This document shows, piece by piece, positions 9,295 to 44,370 of a DNA stretch of 45,756 bases. Both the position numbers and the translations under genes were made by a program. The notes under the pieces were generated by a model. It was not told the DNA's origin. It saw only the letters and a list, made by a program, of their open reading frames with translations, and made no database searches. This DNA comes from Bacteroidales bacterium (GTDB taxonomy: Bacteria; Bacteroidota; Bacteroidia; Bacteroidales; UBA10428). The DNA lies in assembly GCA_016926375.1 (NCBI GenBank), contig JAFGOR010000163.1, positions 1-45,756 of the forward strand. The letters are read 5' to 3'. Within the stretch, counting starts at the first letter, position 1, and each line of letters starts with the position of its first letter.

Positions 9295-10800
9295 ATGACA
9301 AATGCCTTAGAAATAAAAAACAACCAGCGGGTTCAGCTCAAAGACATACCTGTGCTCCCTTATGAGGAATTCCTGGAATTGAACACCAACCTCACCAAAG
9401 ATTTCTATTTTCATTGTGTGAATTACTTTGCCTGGCCGCAGGGTAATCAGCTTCGCTTATTTTGCTGCATTGCCGATGATACAACAGGGCACATACTTCT
9501 TTCCTCGTCTGTAGTTGCCCATGACAACTCCCGTGAATACCCTTCATTCTCCGCAAAAAATTTGGCATTTCATGTATTTGAAAGAGAAATCCATGAAAAT
9601 ACCGGACTGAAATATTCCGATCATCCCTGGTTGAAACCGGTGCGCTATCCGGTTAACAGGGCCGATAGGAACAGTGACATCAGCAATTATCCTTTCTACC
9701 AGATTGAAAGCGAAGAATTGCACGAGGTTGGCGTAGGACCCATTCACGCAGGAATTATCGAACCCGGACATTTCAGGTTCATCTGCAACGGGGAACAAAT
9801 CCTTCACCTTGAAATTCAACTGGGCTACCAGCACAGGGGTGTTGAACAATTGTTCCTGACACCAAAAAACCTGCTGCAGCGCACTGTGCTTGCCGAGAGT
9901 ATTGCAGGAGACACCGTGATTGGGCATACCACTGCCTTCGCCGGTTTGTGGGAAAGCCTGTGCGATTTTACTCCGGGTGAAGACATCCTCCATGCCCGCA
10001 CCATCGCCTCGGAACTCGAACGGGTTGCCATTCATACCGGCGACCTGAGCGCCATATGCGCTGATATTGCCTACCAGTTAGGAAATTCGGTATTTGGCCG
10101 GTTGCGTACACCTGTAATCAATACTTTTCAGAAATGGTGCGGCTGCAGGCTGGCAAAAGGTCTCATCAGGGTAGGGAAAAACCAGTACCCGGTAACGCCT
10201 TACATGGTTGACAGCCTTACCCAACTTTTTGATGAATATGAACCCGACACCTACGAAATGTATGACCGGATGAAAACCCTACCCAGTGTGCTGGCACGAC
10301 TGGAACGAACCGGCATAGTAACACATGAACAGGCCGAACGTATTGGTTGTGTGGGCATGACAGCACGGGCATCAGGTTTGATTCGCGATATCCGATGGAC
10401 ACATCCTTACCTGATATATGGACAGATACCCCACCAGCCCATCGTTAAACACCACGGCGATGTGTACTCCAGAACCCAGATCCGCCGTCATGAGATCAGC
10501 CAATCCATACGATATATCCGCGATTTGATTGCCAACGTGCCTGCTGAAGGCAATGGCAACCCTGAACTTTCATCACCTCAACCCGATTCATTCGTGATTT
10601 CCCTAACCGAAGGCTGGCGGGGCGAGATTTGCCATTGTGCCATCACCAACGATACCGGCGAACTGGCCTTGTATAAGGTCAAAGATCCCTCGTTGCACAA
10701 CTGGCTCGCACTGGCATTGGCTGTAAGAAATAACGATATTTCCGATTTTCCGATCTGTAACAAGAGCTTTAATTTGAGCTATTGCGGAAATGATCTTTAA
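9295..10800 (+). CDS. HyfG-like (NuoCD-type) subunit lacking NiFe-binding cysteines
   Basis: The 501-residue protein joins a NuoC-like 30-kDa domain (about residues 1-130) to a NuoD/hydrogenase-large-subunit domain (about 145-501). VGPIHAGIIEPGHFRF and QLGYQHRGVEQL (about 147-186) are family signatures. The first NiFe motif, RxCGxC in hydrogenases, reads ESIAGDTVIGH here, with Ala204 and Thr207 in place of the two cysteines. The second, DPCxxC, aligns to the C-terminal SFNLSYCGNDL, with Ser495 and Gly498 in its cysteine positions and one out-of-register Cys497. It therefore cannot hold a normal NiFe centre and belongs with energy-converting hydrogenase-related (Ehr) proteins. Its present reaction is unknown; the last residue is Leu, with no maturation-protease tail. 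Confidence 0.88.
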   Translation: MTNALEIKNNQRVQLKDIPVLPYEEFLELNTNLTKDFYFHCVNYFAWPQGNQLRLFCCIADDTTGHILLSSSVVAHDNSREYPSFSAKNLAFHVFEREIHENTGLKYSDHPWLKPVRYPVNRADRNSDISNYPFYQIESEELHEVGVGPIHAGIIEPGHFRFICNGEQILHLEIQLGYQHRGVEQLFLTPKNLLQRTVLAESIAGDTVIGHTTAFAGLWESLCDFTPGEDILHARTIASELERVAIHTGDLSAICADIAYQLGNSVFGRLRTPVINTFQKWCGCRLAKGLIRVGKNQYPVTPYMVDSLTQLFDEYEPDTYEMYDRMKTLPSVLARLERTGIVTHEQAERIGCVGMTARASGLIRDIRWTHPYLIYGQIPHQPIVKHHGDVYSRTQIRRHEISQSIRYIRDLIANVPAEGNGNPELSSPQPDSFVISLTEGWRGEICHCAITNDTGELALYKVKDPSLHNWLALALAVRNNDISDFPICNKSFNLSYCGNDL

Positions 10801-10832
10801 TTTGATAATTTGATGATTTGAAAATTTGATAA
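10801..10832 (+). repeat. Tandem octamer repeat, 4 x TTTGATAA-like
   Basis: Directly after the TAA of the HyfG-like gene are four contiguous octamers: TTTGATAA, TTTGATGA, TTTGAAAA, TTTGATAA. The period is exactly 8 with single-base variants. It is non-coding and lies inside the operon, before the last subunit gene. Confidence 0.75.
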
Positions 10833-10861
10833 TTGTGTCCTTTTCAAAATAATGTATTATA

Positions 10862-10897
10862 GTCACAAACCTGCCTGCCGTCAGGCAGGGTCACAAA
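10862..10897 (+). repeat. 20-bp palindrome flanked by 8-bp direct repeats
   Basis: A palindrome at 10870-10889 (CCTGCCTG, loop CCGT, CAGGCAGG) is bounded on both sides by the same octamer, GTCACAAA, at 10862-10869 and 10890-10897. This is what a tiny insertion with target duplication would look like. A related 21-bp palindrome lies at 44577-44597. Confidence 0.7.
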
Positions 10898-10975
10898 GAC
10901 TCGAAGAACCCAATTATCATAATATTGTAGATGAATATAATATATACTTAGTGCCTTAGTGACTTAGTGGCATGA
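10898..10975 (+). repeat. Degenerate CACAAAG / CTTAGTG intergenic repeat
   Basis: After the palindrome the spacer contains GACTCGAAG and then TTAGTGCCTTAGTGACTTAGTGG, a near-periodic run of CTTAGTG units described here by its parts (10950-10972). Related words occur at 31205-31350. It is non-coding with no promoter recognised. Confidence 0.45.
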
Positions 10976-11025: not shown

Positions 11026-11823
11026 ATGAAGTACAAAGCAAACATAGGTTCGGTTTTCTCTGAGATGCGCATTTTATACCACCAGGGAAAACAATACATA
11101 CCGGATGTCACTACCGTCGAAGTTCCGGGAATATTCAGGGGACGGCCGGTTATTAAGACAGCGGCAGCGGCAGGAGCAGGAGCAGATGAAGATATCCGTT
11201 TTCTGCCCGACCTTTGTCCTACCGGAGCCATTGACCTTGAGCCATTGCGCATCGACCTGGGGAAATGTATCTTTTGCGGCGATTGTGAAAGAGCCTGCCC
11301 GTCAAGGATAAAATTCACCAAAGACTACAAAATATTTTCTGCAACCCGTAACGGTCTTATCATACGTGAAGGCGAAGATCAAAAAATGACCATCAAAGCC
11401 GATGAGGTAAGAAAGGAGATCCGGAAATACTTCGGCACTTCGCTGAAGCTCCGCCAGGTATCTGCTGCCGGCGACAACAGTTGCGAGTGGGAACTGAACG
11501 CGTCGGGAAATGTGAATTTCGACATGGGCCGTTTTGGTATTGAATTCGTGGCTTCTCCGCGGCATGCCAACGGCATTGTTGTTACCGGACCCATCTCCCA
11601 AAACATGGCCGAACCTTTGCAAATATGCTACGATGCCATACCCGATCCCAAAATAATCATACTGGCCGGAACCGATGCGATCAGTGGCGGAATATTCGCC
11701 GGAAGCCCGGCGATCGACAGATCGTTTCTAAACAAATACCAGGTTGACCTTTACCTGGCCGGGAATCCTACACACCCCTTAACCATCATCAACGGTATAT
11801 TAGCACTAACCCGGGGCAATTAA
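11026..11823 (+). CDS. Ferredoxin-HyfI (NuoB-type) fusion subunit of Ehr complex
   Basis: The N-terminal part (about residues 60-95) is a reduced 2[4Fe-4S] ferredoxin domain: motif 1 keeps only Cys64-Pro, while motif 2 is complete (Cys81, Cys84, Cys87, Cys91-Pro). One cluster is therefore possible. The C-terminal part (about 145-265) is the hydrogenase small-subunit/NuoB fold, recognised by RFGIEFVASPRHANGIVVTGPIS and the SGGIF segment. Of the four ligands of the proximal N2-type cluster only Cys153 remains; the others are replaced by Asp150, Asp217 and Asn247. An Ala/Gly-rich stretch (about 46-53) precedes the ferredoxin domain. HyfH and HyfI are normally separate proteins. The gene ends the operon, 225 bp after the HyfG-like gene, and its 3' end overlaps the convergent DUF434 gene by 18 bp. 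Confidence 0.82.
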   Translation: MKYKANIGSVFSEMRILYHQGKQYIPDVTTVEVPGIFRGRPVIKTAAAAGAGADEDIRFLPDLCPTGAIDLEPLRIDLGKCIFCGDCERACPSRIKFTKDYKIFSATRNGLIIREGEDQKMTIKADEVRKEIRKYFGTSLKLRQVSAAGDNSCEWELNASGNVNFDMGRFGIEFVASPRHANGIVVTGPISQNMAEPLQICYDAIPDPKIIILAGTDAISGGIFAGSPAIDRSFLNKYQVDLYLAGNPTHPLTIINGILALTRGN

Positions 11824-31158: not shown

Positions 31159-31172
31159 ATTTACCAAAATGT

Positions 31173-31202
31173 AAAGCGCAGTCTCCCGACTGTGCTTTTT
31201 TT
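31173..31202 (+). terminator. Terminator hairpin of the GCGCAGTC-tccc-GACTG type (copy 1)
   Basis: AAAGCGCAGTC (31173-31183), loop TCCC, GACTGTGCTTT (31188-31198), then further T: an 11-bp stem with one G-U pair and a T-tract. The same core with a perfect 11-bp stem occurs at 34416-34441. Confidence 0.8.
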
Positions 31203-31204
31203 AT

Positions 31205-31350
31205 TAACACAAAGTGCACGAAGAGAAAACCTCACTAAGTCCACTAAGTTTAGGAATACCAAAAGTCCCGCCAATAGCGGAACTCTCCTTTGTGTGCCTG
31301 TTTCTTAGCGTTCTTCGTGACGATTTCACTTTGGGAGCTTTGTGTTTAAA
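31205..31350 (+). repeat. Imperfect inverted CACAAAG / CTTTGTG intergenic repeat
   Basis: The 349-bp spacer before tldD has a left part with AACACAAAGTGCACGAAG (from 31205) and CACTAAGTCCACTAAG, and a right part with CTTTGTGTGCC, TTCTTCGTGACG and GAGCTTTGTGTTT. The arms are imperfect reverse complements with insertions. No convincing gene lies here; a 63-codon frame at 31214-31405 only reads through the repeat. Confidence 0.5.
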
Positions 31351-34389: not shown

Positions 34390-34415
34390 AATCACGGTTA
34401 ATTATAGCTCTGCGT

Positions 34416-34445
34416 AGAGCGCAGTCTCCCGACTGCGCTCTTTCT
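34416..34445 (+). terminator. Terminator hairpin of the GCGCAGTC-tccc-GACTG type (copy 2)
   Basis: AGAGCGCAGTC (34416-34426), loop TCCC, GACTGCGCTCT (34431-34441) form a perfect 11-bp stem followed by TTCT. It lies between convergent genes and may serve both strands. Confidence 0.75.
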
Positions 34446-34448
34446 GTT

Positions 34449-44160: not shown

Positions 44161-44370
44161 AAACCACGGAGTGGTTTAATGTGATTAGCGCAGGGTGAAA
44201 CCCGGTGAGAAGAATAATTGCATTGGTCACAGCAACCACGGAGTGGTTGAATGTAAAAGAGTAGTTTACAATAGGCACATTCAACCACTCCGTGGTTGGA
44301 GATGAATGAATTCCCATATCACACCGGGTTGCACCCGGCGCTATTCGTATTGAACCCCTTAACAGGGGTT
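44161..44370. repeat. Inverted array of short palindromic hairpins (REP-like)
   Basis: Three hairpins of the type AACCAC-3 nt-GTGGTT lie at 44161-44177, 44233-44249 and 44282-44298. The second and third, with 5 extra bases each, are perfect 22-bp inverted copies (44233-44254 and 44277-44298). A GGGTGAAACCCGG segment (44193-44205) has an inverted relative at 44324-44338, and AACCCCT/AGGGGTT (44353-44370) closes the array. The region is non-coding; the 89-codon minus-strand frame across it merely reads the repeats. Confidence 0.75.

Follow-up and report, generated by a model that had tools for sequence, protein, structure and literature searches.

A dispersed 20-bp palindrome of Bacteroidales that probably inserts without target duplication

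The question raised by this locus is whether two identical octamers that flank a very short palindrome are the scar of a transposition-like event. The window, by which we mean the whole 45,756-nucleotide stretch of DNA that was analysed, is contig C208 of a 3.43-Mb Bacteroidales MAG (G000) that is 86% complete, and all the genomes compared are MAGs. The original prediction described a 20-bp palindrome bounded by identical octamers, and this description is exact: GTCACAAA (10862-10869), CCTGCCTGCCGTCAGGCAGG (10870-10889) and a second GTCACAAA (10890-10897) abut without a gap. The palindrome consists of two perfect 8-nt arms and a CCGT loop and is predicted to form a hairpin (-13.3 kcal/mol, z -4.0), while the commoner form found outside the window has a CCGG centre and is a perfect palindrome. 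An Rfam search of the window gave no matches. The features of the locus are as follows.

9295-10800, plus strand: gene for a complex I 49-kDa-like subunit (PF00346), the upstream neighbour
10801-10834, plus strand: AT-rich array of short period, TTTGATAATTTGATGATTTGAAAATTTGATAATT, which has relatives elsewhere in this genome
10862-10971, no strand assigned: 110-bp inverted-repeat element hosting the palindrome (from anatomy and fold)
10862-10869, plus strand: octad 1 of the left arm, GTCACAAA (from octad anatomy)
10870-10889, no strand assigned: 20-bp palindrome CCTGCCTGCCGTCAGGCAGG, member of a dispersed family (from copy counts and hairpin fold)
10890-10897, plus strand: octad 2 of the left arm, GTCACAAA (from octad anatomy)
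10898-10905, plus strand: octad 3 of the left arm, GACTCGAA (from octad anatomy)
10947-10971, minus strand: right arm, three octads without a palindrome (GCCACTAA GTCACTAA GGCACTAA G when reverse complemented)
11026-11823, plus strand: 4Fe-4S and Oxidored_q6 gene (PF01058), the downstream neighbour

The palindrome sits in the left arm of the 110-bp element. This arm is a three-unit array of period 8 with the consensus GNCACNAA, and the palindrome lies between octads 1 and 2, such that the order is GTCACAAA, palindrome, GTCACAAA, GACTCGAA. The matching GTCACAAA octamers are ordinary adjacent units of this arm and not a transposition scar. Because GTCACAAA is a unit of the period-8 array, the octamer match provides no independent evidence of an insertion event. 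When the whole element is folded (-30 kcal/mol, z -2.96), octads are predicted to pair with octads and the palindrome forms a side stem between them. A second filled copy of the element exists in the same genome (G000:C46:2015-2141, 83% identity over 126 bp), where the palindrome occupies the same place but is flanked by non-identical octads (GCCACAAA, palindrome, GGCACAAA GACACGAA). About 210 bp downstream, within the same 400 bp (L027), lies a palindrome-free copy of the repeat, which likewise has three octads.

An empty site carrying one GTCACAAA, which the original prediction would lead one to expect in relatives, was not found in three genomes of the same genus (G003, G009 and G004). The gap between the same two genes is approximately 20 nt in those genomes versus 225 nt in the window, and the orthologous site holds no palindrome, no octad and no GTCACAAA of any kind. 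Since the whole insert of about 200 bp is absent there, no allele with a single GTCACAAA is seen at the site. The AT-rich array at 10801-10834 adjoins the element, and relatives of it spaced by 24 bp occur at contig ends (C39, C50 and C141).

A wider search for the palindrome, in the genome and its relatives, revealed a dispersed family. The pattern CCTGCC(N8)GGCAGG occurs 75 times in the MAG, compared with no occurrence of a reversed-pattern control, and the window palindrome is therefore not a product of chance. Across the order, CCTGCCTNNNGNNAGGCAGG is present in 43 of 295 sampled genomes with 1 to 67 copies each, compared with a handful of control matches. Copies reside in short-period arrays (TTTGACAA, TTTGATAA, CACAGATT, CTTGTCC, TCCAGTA and TCTTGTC), in longer inverted repeats (CTTACGCC, palindrome, GGCGTAAG), within their own kind (L017, L035 and L051), in tRNA genes, in repeats near contig ends and in viral contigs. 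When the flanks are joined, strong periodicity is evident for 12 of 67 palindrome copies, compared with 3% of random intergenic sites. A preference for hairpin loops as targets was also considered on the strength of suggestive single cases (L158, L160 and tRNA D loops), but when 100 junctions were folded and set against positions close by, no difference emerged and this idea was discarded. Searches of phage and plasmid records produced no useful match, and a description of the palindrome was not found in the portion of the literature that our search covered. A second repeat of G000 (L016, L021, L025, L032, L040 and L046) carries CCTGCCTACCGGCAGGCAGG near its ends and GATATCC/GGATA at its edges; many of its copies end contigs, and it probably breaks the assembly.

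If insertion had duplicated one octad, a filled arm of the host element should hold four octads. We scanned 84,980 species genomes with CACNAA, palindrome, GNCACNAAG and recovered 20 stretches from MAGs of Bacteroidales, Sphingobacteriales, Chitinophagaceae, other Bacteroidetes and Ignavibacteria, none of which has identical octads on both sides of the palindrome. Among 22 distinct filled arms, 15 have three octads and seven have two, but none has four, which contradicts a target duplication; empty arms have three (26 arms), two (11) or five (2). Three octads are present both on the filled arm and on the opposite empty arm in the window, L027, L097, L105, L110, L119 and L122. Tabulation of the flanks further shows that only one of the 22 filled arms, that of the window, has identical flanking octads, and so the simplest account of the match is coincidence at the unit's two variable positions. 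Because the search pattern that recovered L104-L123 fixes the insertion phase, these loci are uninformative about phase preference, the phase-free loci being only the window, L027, L097 and L102/L075. Some arms may have spread with the palindrome already inside, as is clearly the case for a family of near-identical palindrome-bearing elements in YP1.bin85 (L111-L122).

The cleanest comparisons come from tRNA genes. In the related genome G124, a 95-nt tRNA-Arg(CCG) gene contains CCTGCCTGCCGGCAGGCAGG in its D loop, following nucleotide 22. This filled gene (304-398 of L167, from G124:C18) lies about 0.4 kb from an intact copy (755-829), and once its flanks are joined the two are identical at 75 of 75 positions, leaving a difference of exactly 20 bp with no duplication or deletion, although insertion into one copy and removal from the other would look the same in this pair. 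The palindrome is here a discrete 20-bp unit that enters or leaves without a scar. A third, partial tRNA-Arg copy (near 1089 of L167) is filled at the same point, and G088 and G192 have D-loop sites of the form GGNTA, palindrome, GAG as well, with a similar D-loop site on a viral contig (L197, position 515). On another viral contig (L190, 2239-2330), a tRNA-Met has the palindrome between its anticodon arm and its T arm, and the joined flanks give a 72-nt tRNA. Viral contigs carry the palindrome in the variable region or D loop of tRNA or tRNA-like sequence at L190 2239-2330, L169 8616 and L197 515. The tRNA insertions mentioned in a paper on Anabaena strain 90 were set aside, as that paper concerns prophages and not small repeats. 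Furthermore, in the CACCACAGATT arrays of G220 (L149-L155), palindromes lie between CACA and GATT or between CACG and GATT in all listed palindrome-bearing arrays. Palindromes occupy two successive CACA-GATT positions in one element and a single such position in another, and the number of array units is equal once the palindromes are set aside.

Given these observations, we favour, with a probability of roughly 0.8, the reading that the palindrome belongs to a family of very small dispersed elements, which enter DNA as a 20-bp unit without target duplication. The mobility proposed by the original prediction is supported by dispersal, by recurrence at octad boundaries in unrelated elements and by the tRNA pair. 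That the palindrome is mobilised in trans is an inference, and no transposase could be tied to it: some trans-acting activity would move the 20-bp unit, and because no duplication is left, this mover may be based on single-stranded DNA or on RNA. The window copy, for which no available close strain provides a palindrome-free version of its octad element as a direct filled and empty pair, might have been inserted into the host repeat or carried along with it. In an RNA or single-stranded form, the inserted palindrome would project as an extra hairpin from the side of the host element's stem. We can also imagine, though we would wager against it, that the palindrome is among the smallest mobile DNAs known and has spread by clean insertion across Bacteroidota, Ignavibacteriota and viral contigs through an undescribed activity on single-stranded DNA or RNA, with favoured targets between CACNAA and GNCAC, between CACA and GATT, and in tRNA D loops between GGNTA and GAGC.

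One candidate mover, compatible with our preferred reading, is a RAYT/IS200-type (Y1) transposase encoded elsewhere that acts on the palindrome as on a REP-like sequence. IS200/IS605 enzymes insert without duplication, and a Y1 transposase is a possible mover for this reason. The size of the palindrome and its intergenic dispersal are also REP-like, and the MAG has four Y1_Tnp matches. Against this, no palindrome is present in the examined stretches around the four Y1_Tnp loci (L124-L127) of this 86% complete genome. GTAG or CGTC tags define the REP superfamilies (PMC3733652), but neither is found at the palindrome ends, where the flanks differ among copies and no tetranucleotide is fixed. Systems of REP or REPIN sequences with RAYTs (PMC3116915, PMC3733652) share with the palindrome the character of small, intergenic, dispersed palindromes that are often nested or clustered, but differ in having the tag, and perhaps in having a RAYT gene flanked by the repeat, none of our copies lying beside the Y1_Tnp genes in the stretches examined. 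On balance, we consider a mover of this type unlikely.

Somewhat more doubtful still is the idea that the palindrome is a fixed stem-loop part of a 110-bp MITE-like repeat and moves only with its host. Its identical position in the window, L027 and L097, and the near-identical palindrome-bearing family of YP1.bin85, are what such a part would show. However, sister elements of the same genome lack the palindrome (the second copy of L027, L086 and L087), and it also resides in many unrelated contexts, including TTTGATAA, CTTGTCC, TCCAGTA and CACAGATT arrays, tRNA genes and the palindrome itself.

We regard the 8-bp target duplication of the original prediction as highly improbable, because the exact abutting GTCACAAA octamers that suggested it are accompanied by octad numbers that the palindrome does not raise, by a G124 tRNA pair with no duplication, and by the absence of GTCACAAA at the site in relatives, so that the fixed-length duplication characteristic of DDE transposons and MITEs is not seen. 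Abutting direct repeats do score at least 6 in 9 of 61 listed copies (a count in which the window appears twice and one relative is included), compared with 0.5 on average when the flanks are re-paired, but nearly all of these copies lie in arrays of period 7-10, which yield direct repeats without duplication. Both this excess and the periodicity of the flanks can be explained if short-period arrays are preferred as targets or are where insertions survive, and duplication is not needed. The sole case not placed in an array is L034, where GCCAAAG, a 7-bp repeat, stands on both sides of the palindrome.

For a dispersed unit that inserts cleanly, the closest known kind is the small dispersed repeats (SDRs) of Nostoc and its relatives. 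Eight families of these are reportedly known, and their members are said to be foldable units of about 20-27 nt that occur in short tandem repeats and mini-transposons and nest within one another. To our knowledge, the mode by which such short sequences spread has been an open question since the Nostoc SDRs were reported. The palindrome resembles SDRs in unit size and in copy number and variety of contexts (75 copies in G000), as well as in its short-tandem-repeat embedding (the 12 of 67 periodic flanks versus 3%) and self-nesting (L017, L035 and L051). It differs in phylum and probably in sequence, and is also found in tRNA loops. Precise insertion appears to be shared, in that SDR5 is described as inserting at a fixed point of the short motif HIP1 (cited in PMC4390886). 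The GC clusters of yeast mitochondria (PMC4478555) are likewise short, GC-rich, intergenic palindromes that are sporadic, merge and nest, but they belong to an organelle, and a putative target-site duplication is reported there whereas none was found here. A misleading reading of target duplication is thus replaced by a 20-bp unit with filled and empty tRNA copies 0.4 kb apart. In a family whose unit and junctions are defined and whose hosts carry many copies, the spread of such short repeats becomes testable by strain comparison.

Other repeats are also present in the window. A perfect 22-nt inverted repeat, CAACCACGGAGTGGTTGAATGT, with 22-nt spacing occupies 44233-44298, and a further near copy lies at 44162-44183. 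Two 35-bp copies of a dispersed, hairpin-like repeat beginning with GTAAAGCGCAGTCTCCCGACTG (31171-31205 and 34414-34448) are 86% identical, and sequence related to this repeat abuts a palindrome in L006.
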